Below are positions 47,050 to 64,000 of a DNA stretch of 64,000 nucleotides, piece by piece. The translations under genes were made by a program, and so were the position numbers. The notes below the pieces were generated by a model. It had not been told where the DNA came from, did not search any database, and saw only the letters and a program-made list of their open reading frames with translations. Each line of letters starts with the position of its first letter. The stretch's first letter is position 1. This stretch comes from Methanolobus profundi (lineage in GTDB: Archaea; Halobacteriota; Methanosarcinia; Methanosarcinales; Methanosarcinaceae). The DNA lies in assembly GCF_900114835.1 (NCBI RefSeq), contig NZ_FOUJ01000002.1:390374-454373 (forward strand). Reading direction: 5' to 3'.

Positions 47050-47796
47050 TCATTCAGAGAATACTGCAATATTGCTATCATATCCTGTTCTTGAATTTGT
47101 TTCCGGATAGTATCTCTTGAACTTTCCGTGTCGTTCTGTGCGAATGACGTTCTCTTCGTCCAGCCTGTTAACATGCCAGTGAATGGTACTTTTGTCAACA
47201 CCAAGCTTTGAAGACAGGTCCTTACCTGTAACTCCCGGTTCCTCAAAGATGGTCTCAAGAACGTTCTTACGTGTGTCGTTCTTCATATTGATATCAAGGA
47301 ATATGTTCCTGTGATCCTTTGACAGGTCATATCTGAAATATCTGGTGTATCTTCCATTCCTCAAAGGAGATACCATGTTAGCTAATTCCAGTTTTCCCAC
47401 ATGGTACCTGAATGTACCTCTTTTCATATTCAGAGCCTCAAGAACATCGCCCTCCGAACATCCCGGGTTTTCAGAAACATAAGAGAGGATCTTCTGCCTG
47501 TTATCATCCCCTCCTTTGCTGAGATGTATCTTTCCCAGCAGAAGAGGGAGGAACTTTACAAGGCTCAAGGACCAGAAAGAAAAGAGAGCTCCTAATGTTA
47601 GCATTTTGAAGTACAAAGGCAGTTCCCAGAATGTAAGATTGGAATCACACCCATCACTATTGATAAGCTCTTCAGGAATATCCAGGTCTTCTGAATAGGG
47701 AACTATCACATACTCAGCACTAGCCGTAAAGCATAAGCATAAAAGTATAAGCAAGGTGCATACTGCTTTCAGTATATTGTTTGTACTTCGTGCCAA
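47050..47796 (-). CDS. Membrane-anchored protein with two winged-helix domains
   Basis: The 248-residue protein has a signal or membrane helix (KAVCTLLILLCLCFTASA), a short outer loop and a second membrane helix (YFKMLTLGALFSFWSLSLVK). Two winged helices follow: SYVSENPGCSEGDVLEALNM / GTFRYHVGKLELANM and ETIFEEPGVTGKDLSSKLGV / STIHWHVNRLDEENV. The DNA-binding part faces the cytoplasm, so it looks like a one-component sensor-regulator, a type expanded in Methanosarcina relatives. It is convergent with the MetV-like gene and faces away from the secretion region, which it could regulate. Confidence 0.85.
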   Translation of the reverse strand: MARSTNNILKAVCTLLILLCLCFTASAEYVIVPYSEDLDIPEELINSDGCDSNLTFWELPLYFKMLTLGALFSFWSLSLVKFLPLLLGKIHLSKGGDDNRQKILSYVSENPGCSEGDVLEALNMKRGTFRYHVGKLELANMVSPLRNGRYTRYFRYDLSKDHRNIFLDINMKNDTRKNVLETIFEEPGVTGKDLSSKLGVDKSTIHWHVNRLDEENVIRTERHGKFKRYYPETNSRTGYDSNIAVFSE

Positions 47797-48096
47797 GTAT
47801 TCGTGACCCCCCTGAACACCGGATAGATATCAATTGATATTTCATCCAGACATGTATAAACGTACTACATTTAGACTAGTCTATAGATTGATGATTCTAA
47901 ATATTGTATTTATGAGTTATGGCCAATGTTCCAACTGAAAGATCGTGGCTACGCCCTAAAATATTAATATAAAACACTAAAATATCACAAATGTCTACAA
48001 CCGGCATCATACGACACTATTAATTAATAAGATGAAAGTACCAGTATTATTTTTATAACAATTATTATGATAATATAAGTACACAGTTAAATCAAA
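47797..48096. other. AT-rich gap between the winged-helix gene and the first secretion operon
   Basis: No coding sequence is supported. TATA-rich runs occur, but I cannot assign them beyond the divergent promoters of the flanking genes. Confidence 0.4.
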
Positions 48097-48114
48097 GGCC
48101 ATAATACTTAAATA
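48097..48114 (+). promoter_or_regulatory. Promoter with GGCCATAAT element and TATA box, copy 1
   Basis: GGCCATAAT (48097-48105) precedes TTAAATA (48108-48114) with an 11-nt start-to-start offset. The same pair at the same offset occurs at 55114, 59647 and (ATAAATA) 63203, with looser forms at 62411 and 63333. The leader RNA begins 42 nt after the TATA start, as in copy 2. Confidence 0.7.
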
Positions 48115-48149
48115 GTTATCAAAATAATTTTATGATGACGCATTGAAAT

Positions 48150-48292
48150 AATGTGGAGTGGGGTCCAAACTAAACTTGCAGAGTCGGCTTGAACCCCGAA
48201 ACGCCCTAAGGCAAGGTTATAGTTGGCTTTGATAGTGTTTAAGGTTTGCGTGATCTTGCCTCAGGAGTAATTCGAAATGAGGTAAGAACAAA
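48150..48292 (+). ncRNA. Structured leader RNA, copy 1 (riboswitch-like)
   Basis: Bases 48150-48261 match 55167-55278 without gaps at 102 of 112 positions by hand count; the first 42 are identical. Helices: GGGGT/ACCCC (48160/48193), GGCAAGGTT/GATCTTGCC (48210/48252) and CTTTG/TAAGG (48227/48240). CTTGCCTCA (48255-48263) can alternatively pair with TGAGGTAAG (48278-48286), which includes the ribosome binding site of the gene at 48293. CTTGC at 48175 is also complementary to GGCAAG. These exclusive pairings suggest control of translation. I do not recognise a known class. Confidence 0.7.
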
Positions 48293-48706
48293 ATGAAAAC
48301 TAGCATAATTGCAAAGATAGGAATTTCGATGTTAGTAATGTTGATAGCCGTTGGAACAGCATCTGCATCAGGAGGGGGATCGTATGCGACCGCAGAAGAA
48401 ATAGAGGTTGCAGACGGAGATTTTGAAATGATTCGAGGTACTTACAGTGCAGATGACTGGTATGTTTTTGAGGAAGTTGGCAATGGTGATACAATTTATG
48501 TTGACATACAAGAATCATTTACAGATGCAGGTGGTTTCTTGGACTTGCATGACGACGGTCAGGGAGATATAGAGATACATCTGCCTAATTCTAATGATGA
48601 CCAAGAAACAAGTGTTACATCAGACCCACTGCCTCGTATTTATGTTGAAGCAGGAACACAGTTTTCTTATAAATACTTGGTTGCAAGGAATAGTCCGCTA
48701 TTCTAA
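48293..48706 (+). CDS. Secreted protein with pre-peptidase C-terminal-like domain
   Basis: The 137-residue precursor has a clear signal peptide (ISMLVMLIAVGTASAS, cleavage near residue 26). The mature beta-rich domain (DFEMIRGTYSADDWYVFEEV, GDTIYVDIQESFTDAGGFLD) resembles pre-peptidase C-terminal or related surface domains. It follows the structured leader, whose alternative helix covers its ribosome binding site, so its translation is probably regulated. It is 86 bp upstream of the beta-propeller gene and may head the first exporter operon. Role unknown. Confidence 0.7.
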   Translation: MKTSIIAKIGISMLVMLIAVGTASASGGGSYATAEEIEVADGDFEMIRGTYSADDWYVFEEVGNGDTIYVDIQESFTDAGGFLDLHDDGQGDIEIHLPNSNDDQETSVTSDPLPRIYVEAGTQFSYKYLVARNSPLF

Positions 48707-48792
48707 GAATAAAATTTGGATGGAAGGATTAAAATGCAGAATCTTTCCTACTTTTTTTATAATGGTGAATTGACTTTTAGATAGAGGATCGA

Positions 48793-50400
48793 ATGAATAA
48801 GCTCGTAATTTCAACATTGATATTAATTACATTATGTAGCATGTCCCAATCTACTGCTGCAAATGAGGAATTGGAAATAAACATCACTGCCATTGCTGAT
48901 TTAAATCAAACAATCGGAAAAGATGTTATGAGTTTAGTAGATTCTAATGGTCTTATTATTGACAATGCCCCATTGTTTACCACATTATGGAGTCTTGATG
49001 AAAAGCATATGTTGATTTACGTATATATGAGTGCACATCAAAAAAGCAAGGGAGCCTTTAGGGGTAGCGGTATTTATGCGCTCTACATAACAAACGTCAA
49101 TTGTTCTGAAATTACACGAGTTAATTGGAAAGAATACACGTCTGCTGATGGGAGCACAATATCATCTCCTGAATGGAGTTTCTCTGGTGATTATTTTTCA
49201 TATTTGGAAATAACAAATACAGCAAAAGTGAGTTCAACACAAAGTTCTTCTACACTTTATGTTATGTCAGAAAATCTAGACATTATTCGAAAAATAAACT
49301 GTGATCCAGAGAAAATTAAAAAATGGAAAAACAAATGGTCTCCTAAAGAAGATAAAATAAGTTTTATTGAACAGAGTACTAATCTAAGTATTTATGATGT
49401 TAATGATAATTGTAGCCTTCGTTTTGATTTACATGATGATTACACATACTTAGACGACGGAGCATGGTCCCCTGATGGAAGCAAGATTAGCTTTACAAAA
49501 GATCAAAACGAAATTATTATATTAGACATTGAAAAAAAAGGACTTAATACAATTTATTCGACCAGTACTGCTGGCATGGTAAATGGTAAACAATGGAGTC
49601 CTGATAGTAAAAAATTATTTTTTTATGCCATAACAGGGTCCGAAAAAGAAGGTACGCTCCTGTATGACATATACGTGATGGAAGAATATACTAAGAGTCC
49701 ATTAAAAGTTATATCTTATAAATCCCCTTCATCAGCAATATTTCAATGGTATCCAGATAGTGAAAATTTGTTATTAATGCATCATAATCCGGACTCGAAT
49801 TCATATAAATTAGATTCGTTATCAGATAGTGGAAGCACAAAAGAACTATTTACATGCAATCAGCATCTTTATGCAAGTATTGGACCCAATGATTATATTC
49901 TGGCCACCAATTCGAATCCAACTCTTAATCGAATTGAAAACCACTTCCATGCATACGACTTATTTTTGTTTAATGATTTAAAAGAATTTTGTTTTGAAAA
50001 TATCACATATTACACATGGAAAGATGACAATTTACTATTTGTTTCAGAAGGTAAAATGAAGATTTTTGAACCGGATAGTGAACAGATATTGGAAACACCT
50101 ATAGTGACAAAAGAATTTGAGACCATTCGCTTATCTCCAAGCGGGGATTTCATTTTTTTGGGCAGTACAATTATGGGATTTCAAAAACAAGAAGATCATA
50201 CAGATTACAATATGAATATTAGCTCGACCCCAGAAGTTATAATAAAAAATCCAGAAAATGAACCAGACCCAACAAAAACAACTGCTGAAAAAAAAAGCAC
50301 AGGCTTCAGTCGCAATACTTGTTTTTTAATTATAGGCATTGCAATCATATTTTCATGGATTATAATCAAGCTTACTTTTAATAAATATATAAAAAGATAG
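48793..50400 (+). CDS. Exported beta-propeller protein with C-terminal membrane anchor
   Basis: The 535-residue protein has a signal peptide (VISTLILITLCSMSQSTAA). Repeats of TolB/WD40-like type follow (SSPEWSFSGDYFSYLEI, DDGAWSPDGSKISFTKDQNE, GKQWSPDSKKLFFYA, IFQWYPDSENLLLM, IRLSPSGDFIFLGS). A polar stalk (NPENEPDPTKTTAEKKS) leads to a C-terminal membrane helix (NTCFLIIGIAIIFSWIIIKL). The propeller should sit outside the membrane. The permease gene starts 10 bp later, so it probably belongs to the ABC exporter as substrate receptor or chaperone; this is inferred. Confidence 0.8.
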   Translation: MNKLVISTLILITLCSMSQSTAANEELEINITAIADLNQTIGKDVMSLVDSNGLIIDNAPLFTTLWSLDEKHMLIYVYMSAHQKSKGAFRGSGIYALYITNVNCSEITRVNWKEYTSADGSTISSPEWSFSGDYFSYLEITNTAKVSSTQSSSTLYVMSENLDIIRKINCDPEKIKKWKNKWSPKEDKISFIEQSTNLSIYDVNDNCSLRFDLHDDYTYLDDGAWSPDGSKISFTKDQNEIIILDIEKKGLNTIYSTSTAGMVNGKQWSPDSKKLFFYAITGSEKEGTLLYDIYVMEEYTKSPLKVISYKSPSSAIFQWYPDSENLLLMHHNPDSNSYKLDSLSDSGSTKELFTCNQHLYASIGPNDYILATNSNPTLNRIENHFHAYDLFLFNDLKEFCFENITYYTWKDDNLLFVSEGKMKIFEPDSEQILETPIVTKEFETIRLSPSGDFIFLGSTIMGFQKQEDHTDYNMNISSTPEVIIKNPENEPDPTKTTAEKKSTGFSRNTCFLIIGIAIIFSWIIIKLTFNKYIKR

Positions 50401-50410
50401 GGAGATCAGA

Positions 50411-51310
50411 ATGAATACAATGCAAAGTGTGTTTGTGATTTCAGAAAAAGAATTTGCAGATAATATATGGAGTCCTAAATTATTGGCATTGATAGTTATA
50501 ATTACATCCTCAATATTCTCCAGAACTTACCTTTCAGGAATAACACAAAATTCTGATTTATTGGGAGGGTTTCTTGATGTTGCAAAAATAATATCTCTTT
50601 TTCTTCCACTCGTAGGAGTTGTTCTTGGGTTTGATGCAATAAGCAAGGAGAAGGATAGTGGAGCTCTTAATGTACTTTTAACACATCCTGTGTACAGGGA
50701 TACAATTGTAGCAGGAAAAACACTAGGTGCAATGGGTACATTGGCGCTTATTGTTTTTATATCAACTATCACTGTAATTGGAGCAAGATTGATTTCTTCA
50801 GGATTAGAATTAAATTCATTAGCCATTAGTAGACTGCTTATTTTTTCAATTCTTACATACTTTTATTTATCCATATTCATTTCCTTTGCGATGTTCAGTT
50901 CAATAATAACAAATAATTCTACAAATGCACTAATTTACAATATAGCAACATGGCTAATACTGTGTATTGCTTTTGGAATGATTGCGGCAACAGCTGCTTC
51001 TTTTGTAACAGATGAAAAACCTCTGGACTTGAGTGACAATAATAATTTTTTGATTATGAATGCAAATTTGCAACAATTATCTCCTTCTCACCATTATTTA
51101 ATGGCTGTATCCGGTAACCCCAGTCCTGGGTGGTCAGGAGTTTCAAGTGGTAGACCAGAGGTAGATGGTATATTTGATACAAAACACACCCTTCATCAGT
51201 GGTGGAACGAACTTGGAGTGAATGTTATAATATTGATAATTAGCCCTGTTTTTTTGACAATAATAACATATATAGTATTTTTGCGTAAGGATTTGAGTAA
51301 TGTGGGGTAA
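50411..51310 (+). CDS. ABC-2 type transporter permease, first of a pair
   Basis: The 299-residue protein has six hydrophobic segments. It carries a family-typical loop GVVLGFDAISKEKDSGALNV and LLTHPVYRDTIVAGKTLGAM near the second helix, as in NosY/ABC-2 permeases, and an outer loop before the last helix. GGGAGATC precedes the ATG. It shares that loop with the next gene (GIALGFNTVVKERISGSLNV), and the two probably form a heterodimeric channel with the ATPase at 53390. The transported substrate is unknown. Confidence 0.88.
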   Translation: MNTMQSVFVISEKEFADNIWSPKLLALIVIITSSIFSRTYLSGITQNSDLLGGFLDVAKIISLFLPLVGVVLGFDAISKEKDSGALNVLLTHPVYRDTIVAGKTLGAMGTLALIVFISTITVIGARLISSGLELNSLAISRLLIFSILTYFYLSIFISFAMFSSIITNNSTNALIYNIATWLILCIAFGMIAATAASFVTDEKPLDLSDNNNFLIMNANLQQLSPSHHYLMAVSGNPSPGWSGVSSGRPEVDGIFDTKHTLHQWWNELGVNVIILIISPVFLTIITYIVFLRKDLSNVG

Positions 51311-51314
51311 TTAA

Positions 51315-52178
51315 ATGAACAACAAAAACATATTCGTGATTGCTAAAAAGGAAGCTAATGACTACCTTCATGACAGTGGTTTCTTAATAATACTTTCAAT
51401 ATGTACAGTGATAATATTCGCTTCTACATACATCCCAGCCTCCATGACAACCGCAACAACAGTTTTGAGCAGTATAAATGTTAAAATGATATCACAGTTT
51501 ATTCCATTAATTGGTATAGCTCTTGGTTTTAATACAGTAGTAAAGGAAAGAATATCAGGATCATTGAACGTCTTGCTGACCCATCCAGTGTATAGGGACA
51601 ACATCATTACAGGAAAAATAGTTGGAACAATCCTGGTGTTAGCTTTCATAATCGTATTTTCAGTTTTAGTATCTACTGGTGCAGTAATCATTTTTTATGG
51701 GAGGGCAGTTGAATATATGGAATTGGAACGCATATTTATATTAACTATATTTACATTTCTTTATGCTTGTATATATTTATTTATATCTGTTTTTATTTCA
51801 ATCAATGTTAAAACATCTTCAGAAGCTTTAATATACAACATAATAATCTGGCTTGCAACTTGCGTATTATTTGGTTCACTGCTTAAAACTACTGTTTTTA
51901 TACTGACTGAGCAGACATCGGTTGATAGTGTACTGATAATGCAACTTTTGAATCTGTCACCAATACACCATTATGCCCAAGCAATTGGTGGCTCTGCAGA
52001 CTATGGTTTTGGAGGAGTTAATGCAAAAGCTGCCATTTATGGATTTTTTGATACCCGGTATACACTCACTCAAATATTCAACGAATTCTGGGTAAATATT
52101 GTAATACTAATAATAACTCCAATAATCCTTCTTGTTGCAACTTTCATTACATTTCTGCGGAAAGATATTACACTTTAA
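51315..52178 (+). CDS. ABC-2 type transporter permease, second of a pair
   Basis: The 287-residue paralog of the preceding permease begins 4 bp after it. It keeps the conserved loop LLTHPVYRDNIITGKIVGTI and the motif QLLNLSPIHHYAQAIGG (QQLSPSHHYLMAVSG in the neighbour) before the last helix. Six membrane segments are visible. The pair probably arose by duplication and forms the membrane part of one exporter together with the NEW3 protein and ATPase downstream. Confidence 0.88.
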   Translation: MNNKNIFVIAKKEANDYLHDSGFLIILSICTVIIFASTYIPASMTTATTVLSSINVKMISQFIPLIGIALGFNTVVKERISGSLNVLLTHPVYRDNIITGKIVGTILVLAFIIVFSVLVSTGAVIIFYGRAVEYMELERIFILTIFTFLYACIYLFISVFISINVKTSSEALIYNIIIWLATCVLFGSLLKTTVFILTEQTSVDSVLIMQLLNLSPIHHYAQAIGGSADYGFGGVNAKAAIYGFFDTRYTLTQIFNEFWVNIVILIITPIILLVATFITFLRKDITL

Positions 52179-52187
52179 AATGATAAC

Positions 52188-53387
52188 ATGATTTCTATAA
52201 AACATATGATTATTGGGGTTACTTTTTGTCTTATATTAGCATCTTCATATGCAAGTGCAGACTGGTCATCAGTATGCGTAAAAAACCAAATCACTGGGAA
52301 AGTGGTCTACCCCGGAGATATTGTTGAGTTTCCTATAACCATAGAGAAAGGGTACAATGGCACTGATGATTCGTGGTGCACCATGCTAGTAAAAAGTAAG
52401 CCTGAGGGGTGGACTGCTGGATTTTATGAAGATAATGACCAGATAACTAACATCTTCTTTCCTGAGGATGAAAGTGACCCTGTAGATGTTGTTTTGAAGG
52501 TGAAAACACCTCAAAACGTATCAGATGGAATTTATTCCATATGGGTAGATATCAAACCAGATGATGGCGATATCATTTCTAGAGAATTTGCGATTACTGT
52601 AGATACCAAAGCTGAACCTAACATTGAGATATACTCAAGTACTCCTGGAATAGAAACACGATCAAATGATCCGGTAAAATATCTCCTTACCTTGGAAAAC
52701 AAGTATGATCATAGGATAACAGTTAATCTGGATACTATTGGTAAATCGGAAAATTTGAGCGTTGAATTCCTGCAGGAGATCGATGATGAAGAATTCAGAC
52801 TTAAAACGCTGTCATTAGCTGCAAACTCTCAGTATGATATTCTTATGGGAGTGAAGCCATCTATAAATCTAACAGATGGAACATATTCATTCAAGGTCCA
52901 AGCGGTACCGGAAAATGGAGGAAATGGCGTTTCACTGAATTTGAATCTGATAATCAATAACAATTTAGAAACTGAGGAAATGCTGACCATATCACAAAGT
53001 ACATCCAGTCTAGTTCTCAATCCTGGTTCTTCGAAGGAGATCTATGTTACTTTAAGGAATAATGGTGATGAGACACTTACAAATATTGATCTAAAAGTAC
53101 AGGATGTTACAGGAATTACCGCTGAAGTAAGAAGCTTTGGTACAATTGATGAACTTGAACCAGGAGAGTCGTGGGATACTTCAATAGAGATTACCGCGCG
53201 TGCGGACGCAAGTCCTGGTACTAAAGACCTTCTAATGAGGGCTGTTAGCGATGACGCTCAAAGCCAAGACGGAAGAGTAGAGATAATAGTGGAAAAGTCA
53301 GACAGTGGAGGATTTATTGGGATAGGGATGGTCGTGGTTTCTATACTTTTGTTAATAGTAATTGTACGTAAGTTTGGAAGGCGATAA
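52188..53387 (+). CDS. Exported NEW3/CARDB-like protein with C-terminal membrane anchor
   Basis: The 399-residue protein has a signal peptide (MIIGVTFCLILASSYASA). Three beta-sandwich repeats follow, resembling NEW3 or alpha-galactosidase-associated domains (GKVVYPGDIVEFPITIEKGY, NDPVKYLLTLENKYDHRITV, LVLNPGSSKEIYVTLRNNGD). A C-terminal helix (GFIGIGMVVVSILLLIVIVR) anchors it. Such proteins accompany ABC-2 exporters in archaea. It lies between permeases and ATPase with gaps of 9 and 2 bp, so it is surely part of the same operon and probably the exporter complex. Confidence 0.85.
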   Translation: MISIKHMIIGVTFCLILASSYASADWSSVCVKNQITGKVVYPGDIVEFPITIEKGYNGTDDSWCTMLVKSKPEGWTAGFYEDNDQITNIFFPEDESDPVDVVLKVKTPQNVSDGIYSIWVDIKPDDGDIISREFAITVDTKAEPNIEIYSSTPGIETRSNDPVKYLLTLENKYDHRITVNLDTIGKSENLSVEFLQEIDDEEFRLKTLSLAANSQYDILMGVKPSINLTDGTYSFKVQAVPENGGNGVSLNLNLIINNNLETEEMLTISQSTSSLVLNPGSSKEIYVTLRNNGDETLTNIDLKVQDVTGITAEVRSFGTIDELEPGESWDTSIEITARADASPGTKDLLMRAVSDDAQSQDGRVEIIVEKSDSGGFIGIGMVVVSILLLIVIVRKFGRR

Positions 53388-53389
53388 AC

Positions 53390-54385
53390 ATGGAAATAAT
53401 TAGTAGAGAACAGGAACAAAGCCAAATTATGGAAAGAACCAAGGAATTAGCTATAGAAACCATCAATCTAAGTAAATCATTCGGAAAAGAGAAGAAAATA
53501 CACGCCGTAGATAATCTGAATCTGAAAGTAAAAAAAGGTGAAGTTTTTGGTTTTGTCGGACCAAACGGGGCAGGTAAGACAACAACTATGAAAATGCTTA
53601 TAGGCTTACTGGAACCTACATCTGGAAGTGGAAAAGTGGCAAAATACGACATATTGCATGAAATAATCAACATCAGAGAAGAAACAGGAGTCTTACCTGA
53701 ACCTGCTGGATTTTATGATTACCTAACTGCAAGACAAAATTTACGCTTTTATGCAAAGCTATATGATATAGATTCTAATGAAAGAGAGAAAAGAATCGAG
53801 AACTTACTTGAAACAGTTGGCCTGTCGCGTGCAATCGACCAAAAGATAGGAGGTTTTTCCACGGGAATGCGAAAGCGTTTTGGGCTTGCTCAAGCCCTAA
53901 TCAATGAGCCAACAGTACTTTTCCTTGATGAACCTACAAGTGGGATCGATCCTCTTGGTGCTCAAATGATGAGGAATCTAATAAAAAATCTAAATAAAAG
54001 TAAAAGTGTGACAGTATTTTTGAGTTCACACTCAATGGAAGAAGTTGAAGAAATCTGTGACAGAATTGCAATTATTGCTAAAGGTAAATTGCTGGCAGTT
54101 GGCTCAGTTGAAGATTTGAGAAGTGTGGTAAGGGAAAAGGAAGGAGTACATTATCTACTTGAAGTTCAGGATATCATACCTTCAGAAGCTGTAGAAATTG
54201 TAAAGGATGTAGACGGTGTAGAAGAGGTTGAGATACAATATCCTACACTGAAAGTGCATTCTAATTTTAAAAATGGAGCTGAAATTGCAAAAGCATTAGC
54301 GAAGACAGGAGGCACTATATCTTTATTAGAAGAACAGGAATTAACTCTGCAAAAATTGTTCCTCAAGATTATTGAAGAAGCATGA
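53390..54385 (+). CDS. ABC-2 type exporter ATPase
   Basis: The 331-residue protein has Walker A FVGPNGAGKTTTMKML, Q-loop region TGVLPEPAGFYDYLT, signature GFSTGMRKRFGLAQAL, Walker B TVLFLDEPTSGIDPLG and the H-loop SSHSMEEVEEI. A C-terminal ~90-residue domain (HYLLEVQDIIPSEAVEIVKD) is typical of drug- or peptide-type exporters. It would power the permeases at 50411 and 51315. The gene begins 2 bp after the NEW3 gene. Confidence 0.95.
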   Translation: MEIISREQEQSQIMERTKELAIETINLSKSFGKEKKIHAVDNLNLKVKKGEVFGFVGPNGAGKTTTMKMLIGLLEPTSGSGKVAKYDILHEIINIREETGVLPEPAGFYDYLTARQNLRFYAKLYDIDSNEREKRIENLLETVGLSRAIDQKIGGFSTGMRKRFGLAQALINEPTVLFLDEPTSGIDPLGAQMMRNLIKNLNKSKSVTVFLSSHSMEEVEEICDRIAIIAKGKLLAVGSVEDLRSVVREKEGVHYLLEVQDIIPSEAVEIVKDVDGVEEVEIQYPTLKVHSNFKNGAEIAKALAKTGGTISLLEEQELTLQKLFLKIIEEA

Positions 54386-54389
54386 TCTA

Positions 54390-54551
54390 ATGAGGGAAGA
54401 TATATTGATAGTTGTTCCTAAAGAGTTTGTGTTAAAAGATTTGCTAAAATTTCGGCTTTGTAGAATTTCTGTTAATCTGAGTGACACAAACATTGCTCTT
54501 TTTCTTTCCACAAAAACAGTCTGTGAACTAAATCAGATAAATGATAAATAA
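54390..54551 (+). pseudogene. Possible N-terminal remnant of a third permease
   Basis: A 53-codon frame starts MREDILIVVPKEFVLKDLLK. Its beginning resembles the permease N-termini (VFVISEKEFADNIWSPKLL, IFVIAKKEANDYLHD) with the conserved KE pair, and its position 5 bp after the ATPase gene suits a further operon member. The rest is not hydrophobic as a permease should be, so the gene seems to be truncated and frame-decayed. Confidence 0.4.
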
Positions 54552-55113
54552 TCCGATTCTGTTCTTTTCATCTTTATTGCGTGATGCTTTTCCCATTAAC
54601 AGCGTATGAATTTATCGATTGAAATCATGATAAAACAGATAGTACAACTCACCCATATGAATTCGAGTTTAAGAGGAGATCTCAAACAGTAAGTATTCCA
54701 TCTGAACTTTTATTATGCACTTTTCTGGAAGGAATATCTCTTTCCAGCTTAAAGAGTCGCATGAGTTTCAGAACTTACAATAAAGCAAAGGTATATAATC
54801 AAAAAATAATACATACTATTTTCAAAGAGTTTCTTAACCTGAATAACAATCTATGGAATTCTTTCCATCACATAATTTACAAATACATTATAATAAACTT
54901 CTTTTTGAAAGAGGTAAATATGCGATATATAGATTATGGTCAATCATTCCAACTAATTTTTAAATACTACGTCACGAAACACACTCTGTTATTTTACACA
55001 GAGATTCAAAGTGAGAAACGTAATCTATGGGCCTAATTATGAAATAAACAAATTAGGTATGTATTAAATATCTACTCATAAATTATATTTTCTACATACT
55101 CCGTTTTAACGAT
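54552..55113. other. Gap with a weak open frame between exporter and metalloprotease units
   Basis: A plus-strand frame is open from about 54650 to 55036. Its first part (FKRRSQTVSIPSELLLCTFL) looks protein-like and its latter part (IIHTIFKEFLNLNNNLWNSF) does not. There is no start codon or ribosome binding site for the better part. It may be a degraded transposase or other gene; nothing firm is seen. Confidence 0.3.
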
Positions 55114-55131
55114 GGCCACAATTGTTAAATA
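55114..55131 (+). promoter_or_regulatory. Promoter with GGCCACAAT element and TATA box, copy 2
   Basis: GGCCACAAT (55114-55122) and TTAAATA (55125-55131) keep the 11-nt offset of copy 1, and the leader RNA again begins 42 nt after the TATA start. Confidence 0.7.
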
Positions 55132-55166
55132 AAATAGCAAGTAATTTTGCAATGTCACATAGTAAT

Positions 55167-55305
55167 AATGTGGAGTGGGGTCCAAACTAAACTTGCAGAG
55201 TCGGCTTGTACCCCGGAACGCCCTAAGGCAAGGTTCTGGTTGACTTTGGTAATGCTCAAAGTTTGCGTGATCTTGCCTTTTGGGACTAAACAAAAGGTGA
55301 AATCA
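55167..55305 (+). ncRNA. Structured leader RNA, copy 2 (riboswitch-like)
   Basis: Counterpart of 48150-48292. The same helices form: GGGGT/ACCCC (55177/55210), GGCAAGGTT/GATCTTGCC (55227/55269) and CTTTG/CAAAG (55244/55257), the last with base changes that keep pairing. After TTGCC the sequence differs from copy 1, yet GCCTTTTG (55275-55282) can pair with CAAAAGGT (55291-55298), again covering the ribosome binding site AAAGGTGA of the gene at 55306. Retained pairing with changed sequence supports a real switch. Confidence 0.7.
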
Positions 55306-56679
55306 ATGAGAAATAAACAAACTATAGCTATTTGCTTTGTAATAGCAATCATTTGTTCGATGGCTGCAAGTGCTGAAGCAGTAGAAGCGTCAAATGATAA
55401 TTTACAGGCATCTGTAGAATCTGATACACTGAATGAACACTTCGAAAAAATTAGTGTTGATAAAAGTGATAGACTTAATTTACGCAGCTTTGATTCAATA
55501 AAGAAATATGATTTTATAACCGTTGACCCTATAGCTTTTCAAAAGGATGCGAATTCAGGTGAAATTACGATAGAGATAGCAGGGAAAGATTTCAAATTAG
55601 AGTTAGAACCTGCTATATATATTAATGAAGGAGATACACTCGCCATTCATAATGAAACCGGCCTATATGAAATTGAAATGCCAGAAATATATACCTACAA
55701 TGGAAAAGTTGTCGGCTATCCTGAAAGCAAGACTCGTTTTACCGTGTCGGACACAGGACTTGTTGGTAGGGTGGAAATCGGTGACATAAAATACATAATT
55801 GAACGAGCAGGGTATATCGAAAGAGATGGAAAAAAAACAGCAGTTAATGTTGTGTACAGTAATGTAGATGTATCCCCTAGTGGAACTCTTCCTAGTTCAG
55901 ATGACCTAGTTTATGATAGTACTGAAACAAGTGATACTTTTACAAGTGGTGAATTATCCACGCAAGCTATTGCAAGTAGCATGATATCTACACAAAGTAC
56001 TAAATCAGCTACTACTGTAGATTTATTAGCAATATATGATGGAGAGTTTAGAGATATCTTTGGAAACTATGATGACTGTTGCAATGAAATATATGACATG
56101 ATGGAGACTGTGAATGAAGTATATTCTTCATCTGATATTGGTGTTAACTTGGATATTACACACGTGGTTCGCGATACAGGGTTGGATGAGACAAATGGGA
56201 CTGCCCTATTAAACGAATTCAGGGACAGGGATGATTTTGTAAAAGAATATTACAACTGTGACATAGCTTTCTTATACACTGGAAAAGAAATTGACGATAA
56301 TGTAATAGGAAAAGCGTATAAATATGATACTACACCTAATAAAGCATATGCATTAGCACAGATGACACCTGGTAACTCAACATATACTGCAGATTTAGAT
56401 GATAGATCTATGGTAGTAGCACATGAAATCGGTCATGTATTCAACGCACATCATGAAGACTATAATGAAACTCCTATTTATGCGAAGGCCACCCAATGGA
56501 CCTACTTGCAGGTATGGGATAGATATTCTATTATGTACAGTCAATTCCAAGGAATTGGTTATTTAGGAGGGATGCAATTCGAATTTTCCACCAATACATC
56601 TACTGGCAATGGTGATGCAGACCACGATAATGCAAGATCAATACGTGAGGTAAAAAACATAGTAGCAGCATTTGAGTAG
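55306..56679 (+). CDS. Secreted HExxH zinc metalloprotease (M12-like)
   Basis: The 457-residue precursor has a signal peptide (TIAICFVIAIICSMAASAEA), a propeptide-like region to about 230 and a metalloprotease domain. The latter has VDLLAIYDGEFRDIFGNYDD, the zinc site VAHEIGHVFNAHHED (His373, Glu374, His377, His383) and a Met-turn-like YSIMYSQFQG. This follows the HExxHxxGxxH type of reprolysin-like enzymes, with Ala in place of Gly in the motif. ATG 55306 follows AAAGGTGA; the open frame upstream runs through the leader RNA and is not coding. It would digest proteins outside the cell or process exported substrates. Confidence 0.85.
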   Translation: MRNKQTIAICFVIAIICSMAASAEAVEASNDNLQASVESDTLNEHFEKISVDKSDRLNLRSFDSIKKYDFITVDPIAFQKDANSGEITIEIAGKDFKLELEPAIYINEGDTLAIHNETGLYEIEMPEIYTYNGKVVGYPESKTRFTVSDTGLVGRVEIGDIKYIIERAGYIERDGKKTAVNVVYSNVDVSPSGTLPSSDDLVYDSTETSDTFTSGELSTQAIASSMISTQSTKSATTVDLLAIYDGEFRDIFGNYDDCCNEIYDMMETVNEVYSSSDIGVNLDITHVVRDTGLDETNGTALLNEFRDRDDFVKEYYNCDIAFLYTGKEIDDNVIGKAYKYDTTPNKAYALAQMTPGNSTYTADLDDRSMVVAHEIGHVFNAHHEDYNETPIYAKATQWTYLQVWDRYSIMYSQFQGIGYLGGMQFEFSTNTSTGNGDADHDNARSIREVKNIVAAFE

Positions 56680-56730
56680 GAGCATTAGCGAATTGAGATA
56701 AGAATAGATGATAGATGTGGCTCGATAACA

Positions 56731-56760
56731 GAGGAAGTAACTTTACTTCCTCTTTAATTT
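56731..56760 (+). terminator. Terminator after the metalloprotease gene
   Basis: GAGGAAGTA (56731-56739) and TACTTCCTC (56744-56752) form a perfect 9-bp hairpin with a 4-nt loop, followed by TTTAATTT. Confidence 0.6.
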
Positions 56761-56778
56761 CAGCTATGGGGATCAAAC

Positions 56779-57171
56779 ATGATATCAAGTAATAAAAAAC
56801 TTATAATCGGATTAATTTTGCTGATTATGGCGGGAACAATCGTTTATGCTATTTACTCCGACCATGAATACGTAATAGAAAATCATGTCAGTTTTTCTTT
56901 GCATAACGACGACGAAATCAAACATGAGGTCTTAGTCGAAATCTTTGATTCAACCAACACGTCCGTATTCAAAGAAACATATATAGTGGCTCCTGGTGAT
57001 GAAATATATCCTGCTCGACTCAAAAAGGAAGAGGGTGCATATAGAATAGAAGTAACTTTGGATAATAATACTAATAATACATATATTGGAGACCTTTATT
57101 CAGAGTATCATGATTACATACACATTACAGGCGTTTCTGATCAGCCTTTTATGGTTGAAACTGCAGAATAA
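56779..57171 (+). CDS. Small membrane-anchored beta-domain protein
   Basis: The 130-residue protein has one N-terminal membrane helix (LIIGLILLIMAGTIVYAIY). A beta-sandwich-like outer domain follows (VSFSLHNDDEIKHEVLVEIF, FKETYIVAPGDEIYPARLKK). No enzyme motif. It lies between the metalloprotease and the PepSY-type pair, all in the same direction, but the hairpin upstream suggests a separate transcript. Function unknown. Confidence 0.6.
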   Translation: MISSNKKLIIGLILLIMAGTIVYAIYSDHEYVIENHVSFSLHNDDEIKHEVLVEIFDSTNTSVFKETYIVAPGDEIYPARLKKEEGAYRIEVTLDNNTNNTYIGDLYSEYHDYIHITGVSDQPFMVETAE

Positions 57172-57240
57172 GAATAATAATAGATCAGAGACGATATTTT
57201 ATTATTTGCTTATTCAAGAGACTGAAAAGTGATATTCAAT

Positions 57241-58383
57241 ATGAATCATGTTAATCATAAACACATTCTCATAGCAGTTTTAATACTAGTTGCACTGACA
57301 ATTATAGGATCAATAGCTTCAGAACATGAATGGATAGTTTCAACAAAAGAAGAACAATCAAGCTATTCAAATTATCTTAATCCTGACACAACAAAAGTAA
57401 ATGTAACTTTTGAAAAAGCAAAAGAGATACTAATATCTTCAAATTCAGAAATAAATAGTGACTCCATAAATGGAGAGCTTATTAATGACAGTCAGTATGG
57501 GATAATATGGCAACTTACATCAAAAACCAGTGATAATGGAAGTGTTCTAGGAGTTATTGACTCTGGTGATGGAACTCTGCTATGGATAGAGATTACAAAA
57601 GGAGAAATAAGTGAGAAAAATAACTTTGATCCTAATACAGCAGAGGTAAATGTAACTTTGGAAGAAGCAAAAAAAATATTAAAAAATGAAAATGAGAACA
57701 TCGTTGACGACTCAATAACCGGTAGTTTGAATGGATTAGAATGGGAACTTAATGGAATAACAACCAATGGAAAAGCTGTTGTCATTTCAATTGATGCTAT
57801 AAGTGGGGACATCATAAAATTATACGATAGTTCTAAAGATGGTAAAGGCAGTCTTGACTTAAATGATGATGATGCTTTAGAAATAGCAAATGAGTATGTA
57901 GCAACAAGAAATTCAGTAGATAGTATAAATGAATTGGAACTTGAAGAGATTAAAAAATCAGACTCGAATACTTTTTACGTAAGCTATGTGCGAATAATAA
58001 AAGGAATCCCCTCTCTTTCAGACGGAATCCTTCTGAGAGTGAATTCAGGAACAGGTGAAGTTAGAACTTACCGTAAAACCTGGTCAATGGATGAAAATGA
58101 AGTGGTAGTTGTTTCCACGGAGCCTGATATCTCATCAGATGAAGCTTCTGAAATACTCAAAGAATACATGGCAAATGAACCTTTCATCGGGAAAGATAAA
58201 GCAGATACCGTTAAAATTAATTCTTCTTCTCTTGTCTGGAAATTTGACGATAACCAAACAATACACCTTGCATGGTGGATACGGTTTAAAGATTCAACAT
58301 TTGCAAACGAAGATTCTCCTGCAGCAACATGGATAGATGCACATTCTGGAGAGATTATATTATTTGTTTATGAAAGGGATTGA
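57241..58383 (+). CDS. Membrane-anchored PepSY-like repeat protein, copy 1
   Basis: ATG 57241 follows AGTGAT; the GTG at 57229 is not preferred. One N-terminal membrane helix (ILIAVLILVALTIIGSIA) precedes repeated alpha/beta units of PepSY type. Units begin with VNVTFEKAKEILIS or VNVTLEEAKKILKN and end with strand pairs such as GIIWQLTSK...GVIDSGDGTLLW and LEWELNGI...VISIDAISGDII. A C-terminal unit ends in TWIDAHSGEIILFVYE. PepSY domains accompany and inhibit peptidases; with a metalloprotease 0.6 kb upstream, control of proteolysis is plausible. A close copy follows in tandem. Confidence 0.75.
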   Translation: MNHVNHKHILIAVLILVALTIIGSIASEHEWIVSTKEEQSSYSNYLNPDTTKVNVTFEKAKEILISSNSEINSDSINGELINDSQYGIIWQLTSKTSDNGSVLGVIDSGDGTLLWIEITKGEISEKNNFDPNTAEVNVTLEEAKKILKNENENIVDDSITGSLNGLEWELNGITTNGKAVVISIDAISGDIIKLYDSSKDGKGSLDLNDDDALEIANEYVATRNSVDSINELELEEIKKSDSNTFYVSYVRIIKGIPSLSDGILLRVNSGTGEVRTYRKTWSMDENEVVVVSTEPDISSDEASEILKEYMANEPFIGKDKADTVKINSSSLVWKFDDNQTIHLAWWIRFKDSTFANEDSPAATWIDAHSGEIILFVYERD

Positions 58384-58398
58384 AGAAGGATATTCAAT

Positions 58399-59565
58399 AT
58401 GAAGCATACATATCGTAAACACATTCTTATAGCAGCCTTACTACTAATTGCACTGATAATTATAGGATTAATAGCTTCCGAACATGAATGGATAGTTACA
58501 ACAAAAGAAGAACGATCAAGCCATTCAAATTATCCTGATACAACAAAAGTAAATATAACTTTTGAAGAAGCAAAAGAGATACTGATATCTGCAGATCCAG
58601 AAGTAGATAATGACTCCATAAATGGAGAACTAATTAACGATAGCGAATTTGGAATAATATGGCAATTGACATCTAGAACTATCTATAATGGAAGTATTGT
58701 AGCATCGATTGACCCTTATGATGGAATTCTGCTATGTACAGTTACTACAAGAGGGGACAGAGTAAATCCCAAATATCTTGATCCTAACACTACGGAAGTA
58801 AATGTAAGTTTGGAAGAGGCTAAAAATATATTGATAGCTGAAAACCCAGCCCTGAAAGCTGATTCTATCAATGCACAGCTTATTAATGATGACGATTTTG
58901 AAATAATATGGCAACTGACATCAAAAGCCATCAATGATAGGAGCGTACTTGCTGGGATAGATGCTTATGATGGAAATTTGGTCTTCGTCTATGATGGTTC
59001 AAAAGAGACATTTTCTGATGGTGAAGTGAGTGAAGATGAAGCTGTTGAAATTGCTGAAAAATATATGGAAACTAAGCTCACAGATGAACAGTTAGATAAA
59101 ATTATGCTGGAATATGTTAATTATCGGGAAAATGCAGATGACCTTCCGGGATTCTACCACATAAAATATATCAGGATAATTAACGGTGTTCCTCTCATAT
59201 CAGATGGTGCGACAATAAGCGTAAATTCAGAAACTGGCGAGGTTTCAAGTTATAGGGAACACTGGGAAGTATTAAACGAAAATAAGTACACAGTAGACAA
59301 TGAATCAATTCTAACTGAGGAAGAAGCCATTGATTACTTAAAAGAGTTCATAGGAGAACAAGTATATGATGGGAAGGTTTCAAGCACTACAGAAGTAATT
59401 GAATCTAAACTTAGCTGGAAATCTAATGAAAATGATGAAATCCTTCTGGTATGGTGGATGCAGTTTACAGATCCAAACCTTGGGCTTGATGAAAGTCTTC
59501 CGGGACTTGTTGGTATTGATGCAAATACAGGAGAAGTGCTCGTAGCATCTTATGAAATCGGCTGA
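58399..59565 (+). CDS. Membrane-anchored PepSY-like repeat protein, copy 2
   Basis: The 388-residue paralog begins 15 bp after copy 1. Its start region (ILIAALLLIALIIIGLIASE) and first unit (FEEAKEILISADPEVDNDSI, GIIWQLTSRTIYNGSIVASI) are nearly the same as in copy 1. Later parts differ more (VSLEEAKNILIAENPALKAD, AWWIRF replaced by VWWMQF). It is exported and tethered by one helix. Both copies share the leader sequence GGATATTCAAT / TGATATTCAAT before ATG, so the duplication included the translation signal. A strong terminator follows. Confidence 0.75.
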   Translation: MKHTYRKHILIAALLLIALIIIGLIASEHEWIVTTKEERSSHSNYPDTTKVNITFEEAKEILISADPEVDNDSINGELINDSEFGIIWQLTSRTIYNGSIVASIDPYDGILLCTVTTRGDRVNPKYLDPNTTEVNVSLEEAKNILIAENPALKADSINAQLINDDDFEIIWQLTSKAINDRSVLAGIDAYDGNLVFVYDGSKETFSDGEVSEDEAVEIAEKYMETKLTDEQLDKIMLEYVNYRENADDLPGFYHIKYIRIINGVPLISDGATISVNSETGEVSSYREHWEVLNENKYTVDNESILTEEEAIDYLKEFIGEQVYDGKVSSTTEVIESKLSWKSNENDEILLVWWMQFTDPNLGLDESLPGLVGIDANTGEVLVASYEIG

Positions 59566-59590: not shown

Positions 59591-59646
59591 TTTTTCGCTT
59601 ATTTTTGCATCAAAAATTGAACTATAGTTTTTTTAGTTTGAACTCT

Positions 59647-59664
59647 GGCCATAATAGTTAAATA
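59647..59664 (+). promoter_or_regulatory. Promoter with GGCCATAAT element and TATA box, copy 3
   Basis: GGCCATAAT (59647-59655) and TTAAATA (59658-59664), again at an 11-nt offset. It probably drives the second exporter module. Confidence 0.65.
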
Positions 59665-59699
59665 AAAAACTAAACGACTACTTCATCATAATATGTATA

Positions 59700-59822
59700 T
59701 TTAATTCATATAAAAGTCGGAAGTTATGCTAACTCAAGAGTACATAAGACAAAGTTATAGTTAGCAGTGCTTACAAAGCAAAAGGTGAGATCAATGAAAA
59801 GCACTACATAAACTTTGAAATT
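59700..59822 (+). pseudogene. Decayed third copy of the leader RNA and gene start
   Basis: AAGTCGGAAG (59714), TAAGACAAAGTTATAGTTAG (59745 on) and GCAAAAGGTGAGATCAATGA (59778 on) match parts of the leaders at 48150 and 55167, in order but with gaps. The CTTGCC segment that would pair with GGCAAG is lost. The former start ATG 59794 now reads only four codons before TAA. The promoter upstream remains intact. Confidence 0.55.
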
Positions 59823-59861
59823 AAGATTGCGTAACAGCAAAATCAATGACAACAAAAAAGC

Positions 59862-60230
59862 ATGAAAAATAACCATATATTTCTAATAGTGATATTCGCA
59901 GGACTTGCATTTTTTGAAATTGCCAGCATCTTGAATAAAAGTGTAATGATGGCAGGTATATTACTTGCTATCATAACAGGAATGGTGCTGGGAATAAAAA
60001 TAGATAAAGACCCGCAAAAATACACTTTTTTAGCAGTGTTTACATATAGCATAATTGCATGGGTCTTGATGTTATTATTCACTAAAGACGGAAAATTTTT
60101 ATTAGAAGCAGGTATTGCAGCCACATCACTTTTAACTGGGTTTGCAATTATGAATTTTTTATTCAATGCCATAGTTGGATCATTTGCAGCATTTGTCACA
60201 TGCAACATCAGTGACAATAGAACGGACTGA
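59862..60230 (+). CDS. Four-helix membrane protein of the second exporter module
   Basis: The 122-residue protein is almost wholly hydrophobic, with segments HIFLIVIFAGLAFFEIAS, VMMAGILLAIITGMVLGI, FLAVFTYSIIAWVLMLLF and GIAATSLLTGFAIMNFLFNA. It ends 4 bp before the permease gene, so the two are co-translated. No family is recognised. It may be an accessory subunit of the transporter. Confidence 0.65.
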   Translation: MKNNHIFLIVIFAGLAFFEIASILNKSVMMAGILLAIITGMVLGIKIDKDPQKYTFLAVFTYSIIAWVLMLLFTKDGKFLLEAGIAATSLLTGFAIMNFLFNAIVGSFAAFVTCNISDNRTD

Positions 60231-60234
60231 TAAC

Positions 60235-60984
60235 ATGAATATATCAAAAATAAGAATTGTTGCCCTGGACGAGATATTAAGAGGGGTAAAAAGTAAGCAT
60301 GTATGGTTTTTCAGCAGTGCATTGGCATTCATTTGTATTCTGGCAATGCACTACAGCACATCTTTAGCATTCTTGTTTTCAGATTCGGGTAAAATTCCTT
60401 TCACCTATATTTCTTTCATGATAATACTGATCATCGGCCCTTTTTTCATACTTGTAACAGCATTTGACAGCATCAGTAACGAGGTTGAGAAAGGAACTGT
60501 CAGATATATTATCTCAAAAATTGACAGAGCATCTTTTATGCTTGGAAAATTCTGTTCTTTGTTCCTGATATTCGCAGTCCTTACTTTTATTGTTGCTATC
60601 ATGGGACAGGTATATACTTACAGCTCAGGAAATGCCTTTGATCTGGAAAGAATGATCCTTTTCTGGTTATTCTCAAGTCTGTATCTTGGATGTTTTATCA
60701 GTATCTTCATCTTTGTCTCGACCCTGTCGAAAAATAACAAGATAGCATTCACAATGTCTGCAATACTGCTGGGAATTACCATATACTTCTTTATGCAGGG
60801 TGGCAACGAGTATTTGAGGTATTTAACTCCTCCATATTATGCTTTTGCAGTCTCAGGAACTATGAAAAATACCACCGGAGAAATTGACTATTTTAACATG
60901 ATCAGGAACCTGGTCTCAATGTTGCTCTTTATAGTTGCAACCTTATCCATCGATATACTAACATTCAAAAGGAGGGACCTATAA
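60235..60984 (+). CDS. ABC-2 type transporter permease of the second module
   Basis: ATG 60235 is preferred over the upstream GTG/ATG region that overlaps the previous gene. Six hydrophobic segments are seen (ISFMIILIIGPFFILVTAFD, SLFLIFAVLTFIVAIMG, MILFWLFSSLYLGCFISIFI). The typical loop TAFDSISNEVEKGTVRYIIS matches ABC-2 permeases. The stop overlaps the ATPase start (TAATG), showing coupling. Substrate is unknown. Confidence 0.87.
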   Translation: MNISKIRIVALDEILRGVKSKHVWFFSSALAFICILAMHYSTSLAFLFSDSGKIPFTYISFMIILIIGPFFILVTAFDSISNEVEKGTVRYIISKIDRASFMLGKFCSLFLIFAVLTFIVAIMGQVYTYSSGNAFDLERMILFWLFSSLYLGCFISIFIFVSTLSKNNKIAFTMSAILLGITIYFFMQGGNEYLRYLTPPYYAFAVSGTMKNTTGEIDYFNMIRNLVSMLLFIVATLSIDILTFKRRDL

Positions 60985-61916
60985 TGGCGGCTGCTATCTC
61001 CATAAAGGGTCTGTACAAGAAATACGGCCCCAGATACGTACTGGATAATCTGTCCTTTGATGTGGAAAAAGGAAGTATCTACGGATTTCTGGGACAGAAT
61101 GGTGCAGGGAAAACAACTACCATAAAGATACTGTCAGGACTTTCGATCCCAGACGAAGGCCAGATAATTATTGACAATATGGATCTGTCCGCAGAAGCTG
61201 ATAATATCAAAAATATCCTTGGTCTGGTCCCACAGGACTCTGAATTCTATGATGAACGGACTGCCCTCAGCCAGATGAATTATTTTGCCAGTCTCAAAGG
61301 TCTTAGCAAAAGCGAAGCACAGGAAGTATCAAATCTTTTACTGGAACGAGTAGGTCTTCAAAGTGAGATGACAAAGAAGGTCGGTTCATTTTCCCATGGT
61401 ATGAAAAAGAGATTAAGCATTGCACAGGCACTATTGAACGACCCGAAAATACTCATTCTCGATGAACCCACGAACGGTCTTGACCCTGTTGGAGTGCGTC
61501 AGGTCAAACAGATCATCCAGGAGTGCAACGAGAATGGGATCACAATACTGGTCTCATCCCATAACCTTCTTGAAGTGCAGGAGATCTGCACCCATATAGG
61601 GATCCTGAAGAATGGAAAGCTTATCACCGAGGGTACGATCGAGGAGATCCGACGGCTTGAATCAAATGGAGTAATCACAGTTGGGATCTACAATATATCC
61701 CCTGAAATAGTAGATCTGGTAGAGAACATGGATTATGTCGTGAAGACAAAAATAAAAGAGAATAATATTCTGGAGATCTATGTTAATTCTGAGGTCGATG
61801 TTAAACCGGAACTTAACAAATTGATAGTAGAAAATGGCGGACAGGTTTTCAAACTCATTGAGAATTCACTTTCACTGGAAGATGCATACCTCAATGCAAC
61901 CGGAATGAAAGAATAG
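60984..61916 (+). CDS. ABC transporter ATPase of the second module
   Basis: The 310-residue protein has Walker A FLGQNGAGKTTTIKIL, Q-loop LGLVPQDSEFYDERTA, signature FSHGMKKRLSIAQALL, Walker B KILILDEPTNGLDPVG and the H-loop LVSSHNLLEVQEI, plus a C-terminal domain of ~90 residues. It pairs with the permease at 60235. It is clearly distinct from the ATPase at 53390 (for example SHGMKK against STGMRK), so the two exporters are separate systems rather than a recent copy. Confidence 0.95.
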   Translation: MAAAISIKGLYKKYGPRYVLDNLSFDVEKGSIYGFLGQNGAGKTTTIKILSGLSIPDEGQIIIDNMDLSAEADNIKNILGLVPQDSEFYDERTALSQMNYFASLKGLSKSEAQEVSNLLLERVGLQSEMTKKVGSFSHGMKKRLSIAQALLNDPKILILDEPTNGLDPVGVRQVKQIIQECNENGITILVSSHNLLEVQEICTHIGILKNGKLITEGTIEEIRRLESNGVITVGIYNISPEIVDLVENMDYVVKTKIKENNILEIYVNSEVDVKPELNKLIVENGGQVFKLIENSLSLEDAYLNATGMKE

Positions 61917-63116: not shown

Positions 63117-63202
63117 ACCGATGCAATGTCTATTCGGTGACGTACAAAGAGTAGGGATGATATTTGCAGACCTTTTTGAAGGAAGAACATAGTTAGATCG
63201 GT

Positions 63203-63220
63203 GGCCATAATGAATAAATA
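63203..63220 (+). promoter_or_regulatory. Promoter with GGCCATAAT element and ATAAATA box, copy 4
   Basis: GGCCATAAT (63203-63211) and ATAAATA (63214-63220) keep the 11-nt offset of copies 1-3. No coding gene follows directly; the hairpin RNA at 63240 is the likely transcript. Confidence 0.6.
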
Positions 63221-63239
63221 AGGTCTTTCATATTTTTAC

Positions 63240-63323
63240 GATGTCGAGTGGGGACAACGGAGAGTGGGATCCTATGAGGGACCATAGTATTATGATACCC
63301 ACTCTCCAGCCAACCTAACAGTT
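63240..63323 (+). ncRNA. Candidate small structured RNA with strong hairpin
   Basis: GATGTCGAGTGGGG (63240 on) resembles the 5' end of the leaders (AATGTGGAGTGGGG). After this, GGAGAGTGGG (63259-63268) and CCCACTCTCC (63298-63307) form a perfect 10-bp stem enclosing 29 nt. A smaller hairpin CCAAC/GTTGG (63310-63324) follows, so the unit could be a small RNA with its own terminator, or part of the leader of the gene at 63429. Confidence 0.5.
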
Positions 63324-63332
63324 GGAACTTTT

Positions 63333-63351
63333 GGCCATAAATCCTTAATAA
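63333..63351 (+). promoter_or_regulatory. Promoter element GGCCATAAAT with TTAATAA
   Basis: It has the same order of elements as the others but a 12-nt offset, and lies about 80 nt before the start at 63429. The sequence CCTTAATAA...TTG is shared with the element at 62411. Confidence 0.45.
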
Positions 63352-63428
63352 GTTGATAAATATTTAGTAATTAACCCCGCATAAATATAGAGAGTCTTGT
63401 GGGAACCCAATGTACCAACAGCAAGGTC

Positions 63429-64000
63429 ATGAGCATCCCCCTTTGTGATCAGAGTGAACATGGCCTTGCACCCCTATCCAATTTCCAGACCAAATACATG
63501 CAGATGAATATGGAAAGAGCAGATGATACAGAGAGCGGACCCGATATCAAACAAAAGATACATGTTGATGTTTCCTTTGATACTGCCATGCTGAAAGTAA
63601 TGGTAGCCATGATAGTGGCAACCCTGATACTGTATGCCCTGTGCTTCCGCTCACCTGAATGCAAGATACTTATCTATCTGACCTGGTATGCAGGTTTTAT
63701 TATCCTCCTGCTGAAAGAGCGTACCATAGTAGAGGTCACACCTTACATGATAATCATTCACAGACCCCTTTTCCATCCTCTCATAATAGATAAGCAGAGC
63801 ATAAATGATATGCAGATCAGAAAGAACACGAACTATCCTTTCAGATGGCTACTGTACTCACTTTCATTGATATTGACCGGGTACCTAGCTTACAATTCCT
63901 TCCATGATATTCTGCAAGGAATACAGGGAAGAACTCTCACAGGAGAGATACTTGTTATCCTGTCAGGATCCATATTCGTTTTTCTGATAATAGTCGTCTT
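63429..64000 (+). CDS. Membrane protein, 3' end outside window
   Basis: ATG 63429 follows AAGGT (63423-63427). The frame is open to the window end, about 190 codons. A polar N-terminus (NMERADDTESGPDIKQKIHV) precedes two close membrane helices (LKVMVAMIVATLILYALCF, ILIYLTWYAGFIILLL). A short domain follows (TIVEVTPYMIIIHRPLFHPL, SINDMQIRKNTNYPFR), then two more helices (WLLYSLSLILTGYLAY, EILVILSGSIFVFLIIVV). This resembles PH-like membrane proteins seen repeatedly in Methanosarcina relatives; function unknown. Confidence 0.65.
   Translation, partial: MSIPLCDQSEHGLAPLSNFQTKYMQMNMERADDTESGPDIKQKIHVDVSFDTAMLKVMVAMIVATLILYALCFRSPECKILIYLTWYAGFIILLLKERTIVEVTPYMIIIHRPLFHPLIIDKQSINDMQIRKNTNYPFRWLLYSLSLILTGYLAYNSFHDILQGIQGRTLTGEILVILSGSIFVFLIIVV

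Follow-up and report, generated by a model that had tools for sequence, protein, structure and literature searches.

The region 59647-59822 of the window (the whole stretch of 64,000 nucleotides of Methanolobus profundi DNA analyzed here) is flanked on one side by the second PepSY-type gene (58399-59565) and on the other by a three-gene unit at 59862-61916, and its features are collected in Table 1. It begins with a promoter, GGCCATAATAGTTAAATA, that the earlier note had called preserved and that direct reading places exactly at 59647-59664; the true span is longer, AGTTTGAACTC at 59635-59645 being continued by TGGCCATAATAGTTAAATA at 59646-59664. Together these form a conserved operator with a TATA box at 59635-59664 (AGTTNRA-N4/5-TGGCCAYAA...TTAAATA). 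Behind it follow a degenerate leader, a Shine-Dalgarno (SD) sequence and an ATG at 59794 which, as had been noted and as direct reading confirms, runs for four further codons into a TAA stop (59794-59811). Two intact leaders in the window served as references, and the gene behind the second of them, starting at 55309, encodes a protease with a PF13688 domain (Reprolysin_5, 66.8 bits) at residues 234-388.

Table 1. Features of the third promoter locus and reference features elsewhere in the window.
Feature	Position	Strand	Basis
Intact leader 1 (reference)	48137..48298	+	172.2 bits, model R1
Intact leader 2 (reference)	55154..55314	+	161.2 bits, model R1; precedes protease gene at 55309
Operator AGTTTGAACTC-TGGCCATAA	59635..59654	+	Pattern matches; 33/35 identity to G023 and G024 (with TATA box)
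TATA box TTAAATA	59658..59664	+	Direct reading; spacing as in intact-leader promoters
Degenerate leader RNA (129 nt)	59665..59793	+	P0, P1 and P3 3' arm/anti-SD lost
Orphan Shine-Dalgarno AAAAGGTGA, now unmasked	59780..59788	+	Shuffles; alignment to leader 2
Orphan five-codon ORF ATG AAA AGC ACT ACA TAA (MKSTT)	59794..59811	+	Direct reading
Remnant corresponding to sequence 3' of the G024 truncated protease gene	59797..59861	+	Scar at about 59797-59800
Small membrane-protein gene, now first behind promoter	59862..60230	+	ORF; 80% identical in G023
ABC-2 permease gene	60235..60984	+	PF12679, 57.1 bits vs cut-off 27.2 (from codon 2)
ABC ATPase gene	60984..61916	+	PF00005, 116.1 bits
Winged-helix regulator, hydrophobic N-terminus, candidate operator reader	47050..47796	-	PF13412 and PF24266
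Operator of the regulator's own gene	47917..47936	-	G000:C16:438290-438309 minus

Comparison of the promoter stretch 59630-59664 with those of leaders 1 and 2 gave scores that none of 1000 dinucleotide shuffles reached in either case. Moreover, operator and TATA box are identical without gaps at 33 of 35 positions both in G023 and in G024, two relatives carrying the same locus, and the promoter is also present in a third, G007, and is thus common to all four. The pattern AGTTNRAN{4,5}TGGCCAYAA occurs with 12 exact matches in the M. profundi genome as compared to none for a reversed-pattern control, and across 27 genomes of the genus there were 82 matches as compared to 4 reversed, a count obtained with a pattern drawn in part from its own sites. 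The third-locus promoter has the sequence features of the putative regulon of the winged-helix regulator, namely operator sequence and TATA box at fixed spacing. From the spacing of 19-22 nt between TATA box and start given for M. psychrophilus in the accessible part of PMC5378194, transcription would begin near 59684. Operator sites without a leader behind them are common, and among the 50 leaders listed (down to 28.6 bits) just 8 are preceded by an exact operator at a distance of up to 120 bp.

The operator could be read by the winged-helix protein encoded at 47050-47796. Among the 31 of 41 regulator homologues that score at least 90 bits, 23 have an operator upstream on their own strand within 1.3 kb, the 47050-47796 gene included; of the 27 genus genomes, 14 hold both operator and regulator, 2 the operator only, 3 the regulator only and 8 neither (Fisher p 0.0034). 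Leader presence was not significantly associated with that of either operator or regulator (p 0.061 and 0.22, respectively). Adjacency and co-occurrence make this protein a candidate for binding the operator upstream of the TATA box. It matches both families of the HVO_0163-like/winged-helix regulators (PF24266, PF13412), and its homologues adjoin the operator, to which binding is predicted. The 'cold box' motif reported in PMC5378194 likewise comes from this genus and is shared upstream of several promoters. Upstream of leader 2, the stretch 54559-55278 is a decayed copy of the 5' part of the regulator gene, the divergent promoter and the leader region (73-74% across some 735 columns with G022 and G023), which implies that the regulator belonged to the copied cassette.

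The intact leaders were described by covariance model R1, built from alignment A2 of 18 of the 21 extracted leaders (two degenerate ones and one near-identical copy were left out). Its fold pairs 93.5% of 1361 cells, with changes on both sides in 18 of 28 pairs (123 such cells), and none of 500 shuffles reached either figure under a control that ignores relatedness. R1 matches were found in 16 of 27 genomes of the genus (E<=0.1), in 72 of 111 genomes and 11 of 14 genera of the family (E<=0.01), with up to 26 per genome, and in 96 of 237 genomes of the class (E<=1e-6), all those listed belonging to one archaeal order. The 3' arm CTTGCC pairs upstream in helix P3 and overlaps the segment that pairs with the SD sequence, so that the two pairings are mutually exclusive; the additional helix, formed by the SD with the segment that follows CTTGCC, lies outside the R1 model. 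Anti-SD and SD of the same leader bind each other better than exchanged partners do (0 of 2000 permutations; 1 of 2000 when each type was represented by a single leader), in permutations that ignore relatedness and that used 46 of 50 R1 matches, the four left out being two truncated matches and two that were second copies within a locus; SD and start were obtained for 44 of the 46. An open reading frame of at least 60 aa lies close behind 44 of the 46 leaders and starts with a hydrophobic, signal-peptide-like segment in 43 of these 44, as compared to 13 of 39 long open reading frames of the window. Rfam 15 returned no match in the window at the curated threshold and no family for the intact leaders, leader 1 giving three weak, unrelated hits at a relaxed threshold. 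Furthermore, no description of the leaders was found in the literature covered, which lies mostly outside the subscription journals and includes passages of PMC5378194 and PMC3600222.

The sequence behind the third promoter had been read as related to the leaders at 48150 and 55160 but degenerate, its gene having been lost, and this holds on the combined evidence of promoter, SD and start, profile comparisons and the gene present in G024 and G007. R1 itself gave nothing for 59647-59822 at E<=10, while leader 1 scored 172 and leader 2 161 bits. The comparison with shuffled sequence that the earlier note had proposed as a refutation gave a divided answer: the promoter stands above shuffles, as does the SD/start segment 59776-59800 against leader 2 (0 of 1000 shuffles; 70 of 1000 against leader 1), whereas the leader body alone (59665-59780) does not in local alignment, shuffles scoring as high in 174 of 1000 cases for leader 1 and 359 of 1000 for leader 2. 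The reading that the body resembles leader 1 or 2 by local similarity alone was rejected on this ground, and anchored global alignment was weak against single leaders as well (80 of 1000 and 413 of 1000, respectively). Ancestry therefore rests on the flanks, collinearity, profile tests and orthologues. Against the 14 of 18 leaders used in shuffle tests (four with divergent 5' ends were left out), the mean score was reached by 18 of 500 shuffles for the window body, 5 of 500 for G024 and 3 of 500 for G023. An nhmmer profile gave 1 of 500 for the window and 0 of 500 for G024, G023 being without a profile hit, and a joint column shuffle of the window leader with its orthologues gave 1 of 500. The G007 copy, which is identical to the window at 74 of 104 aligned positions (0 of 1000 shuffles), reached 2 of 500 by profile, and locally 4 of 1000 against leader 1 and 862 of 1000 against leader 2. 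Common descent of the third leader with the intact leaders is indicated by these comparisons.

The structure that makes the intact leaders a switch is gone. As the earlier note had stated, no CTTGCC is found between promoter and ATG; its further claim, a loss of about 17 nt before AGTCGG, is probably wrong, since AGTCGG is unconserved in the three orthologues and is probably a coincidental anchor, which was dropped once these had been aligned. With the orthologues aligned, the losses amount to 10 nt closer to the promoter, another 2-3 nt beyond that and, counted relative to leader 2, 33 nt at the P3 3' arm. Helices P1 and P3 are absent from the third leader, the P3 3' arm being deleted (fold z -0.58 and -0.43). 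Anti-SD pairing is absent too, the leader-2 anti-SD CCTTTTG falling within the deleted 33 nt, and the best upstream duplex with the SD has -5.9 kcal/mol as compared to -8.3 kcal/mol in leader 2.

What is left between promoter and ATG might be a reduced leader that functions in its own right, for instance as a simpler hairpin. Window and G007 do align with few gaps over their 104 positions, both retain SD and ATG, and the predicted fold of the window leader contains an 8-bp pairing, TGCTAACT/AGTTAGCA. However, this long pairing is lost in G007 (by eye), fold z ranges from -0.73 to +1.58 across four species, and the further deletions in G023 and G024 differ, so that we regard a retained function as improbable. 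A conserved alternative hairpin likewise found no support in the fold z values of the four species. Similarly small is the probability we assign to a leader never having been present, the locus then being an exported-protein gene with operator and ordinary 5' untranslated region that resembles the leaders by chance. The local alignments within the range of shuffles and the many leaderless operators would fit such an origin, but the third leader has a collinear 18/21 match to leader 1, TAAGACAAAGTTATAGTTAGC, the profile and joint tests each left 1 of 500 shuffles, and SD, start and gene of the third locus are those of the leader-2 protease cassette.

The gene that once lay behind the third promoter can be recognized in the relatives. 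In G024 and in G007, an open reading frame of 185 aa behind the orthologous promoter is a truncated homologue of the leader-2 protease, corresponding to about its first 200 residues and stopping before the reprolysin domain. The search for an intact gene proposed earlier thus recovered a gene, though a truncated one. The truncated copy ends at the same point in both genomes (L016, L044); between them the reading frame shows dN 0.057 and dS 0.089, a ratio of 0.64 based on few sites, as compared to 0.08-0.13 for ATPase and permease between the window and relatives. A single covariance-model hit in G024, a weak one (12 bits, L044 8270-8344), falls within the protease reading frame and was set aside. 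The window segment 59797-59861 matches the sequence 3' of the G024 reading frame with a score of 77, reached by 0 of 1000 shuffles (best shuffle 42). As this segment is what follows the stop of the G024 gene, a deletion of about 550 bp has left its scar in the window; in G024, 554 nt separate the two ends that flank it. Comparison of the loci thus shows loss of the gene behind the third promoter. The leader and gene start had been proposed to have been copied as one cassette; a cassette it was, but the protease gene behind the orthologous promoter in G024 and G007 implies that the copied unit comprised promoter, leader and whole gene. The copy may stem from duplication or equally from the import of a homologous cassette, recent exchange being indicated for the block 48080-57681 (see below).

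The order of events does not support the earlier proposal that loss of the downstream gene is followed by decay of the structure. G007 and G024 retain the 185-aa reading frame behind a leader that is already broken, so that decay of the leader did not wait for the gene to disappear completely; it may have accompanied the loss of the catalytic domain. Up to the ATG, the leader stretch is identical at 74 of 88 positions with 54 gap columns in G024, and at 64 of 87 with 46 gap columns in G023. The 10-nt loss near the promoter is common to all four genomes, the P3 3' arm loss is common to window and G007, and the leaders of G023 and G024 have further losses. The arm forming the switch helix and masking the ribosome-binding site is deleted in every relative where the homologous stretch survives, and the alignments show its loss to be older than the split of M. 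profundi and G007. Degenerate leaders also occur before intact genes (G025 C2:75454, 33.3 bits; M. profundi C16:133373, 20.2 bits), with all or most of the operator kept. In G023 the start of the small membrane-protein gene coincides with the old start site. The third module is entirely absent from G022, and G012 has permease and ATPase homologues with neither leader nor operator in the stretch examined.

Conservation of the promoter suggests its present use: most likely it now serves the exporter operon 59862-61916. Constraint in this operon is weak for the small membrane-protein gene (dN/dS 0.57 against G023), which may itself be decaying, and strong enough in the permease (0.13) and ATPase (0.08-0.10 against relatives) to mark both as constrained. 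That the whole unit 59635-61916 is dead and conserved passively is hardly credible despite the relaxed first gene, of which G024 has just a broken remnant with stops, as permease and ATPase are constrained and the promoter has kept 33 of 35 positions while the adjoining leader diverged. We consider with good confidence that the locus is a regulated promoter that has lost its RNA switch and now most likely runs an exporter operon. Going by adjacency, we propose that the regulator would bind just upstream of the TATA box and set transcription, to which the leader of intact cassettes would add a translational gate by masking the SD. The third locus has kept operator-promoter, SD and start codon but has lost the switch arm and P1, and a deletion has removed about 550 bp of the truncated reprolysin-like gene copy. 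Transcription controlled by the regulator would then continue into 59862-61916 with no leader left to gate translation.

Known elements that mask the SD sequence include translational riboswitches and RNA thermometers. The intact leaders are similar to them in having two exclusive pairings, one of which covers the SD, and differ in having no known ligand or trigger and no Rfam 15 match, in being confined to one archaeal order in our searches and in having a third copy that is switchless. We are somewhat inclined to see in them an undescribed, order-wide class of SD-masking regulatory RNA for exported proteins, often behind the operator of a membrane-tethered winged-helix regulator, of which the third locus would have lost the RNA layer and kept the transcriptional layer, which was handed to a new operon. 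The locus offers a natural before-and-after comparison of a candidate new archaeal RNA switch, with the same genus and the same operator, with and without the switch. The DNA operator can persist after the RNA element is lost, which makes the two control layers separable.

Further observations concern neighboring parts of the window and genome. The block 48080-57681 (9.6 kb), containing leaders 1 and 2, shares 98.4% identity with G023, whereas the stretches next to it reach about 74-85%, a difference that points to recent exchange or import of the block. At 63202-63480, tandem operator-promoters (TGGCCA at 63202 and 63332) are found with a hairpin-forming stretch between them. The gene at 63399 is preceded by a second, different conserved leader (CCCCC-ACAAATA...GTGGGAACCCAATGTACCAAC-GCAAGGT...ACCTTGC) that is shared by six genomes. 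Finally, the tandem operators at L067 (G000:C11:43821-43840 and 44100-44119), with an RNA-like stretch nearby, precede a gene for an exported protein of 153 aa, and a regulator homologue lies further on.
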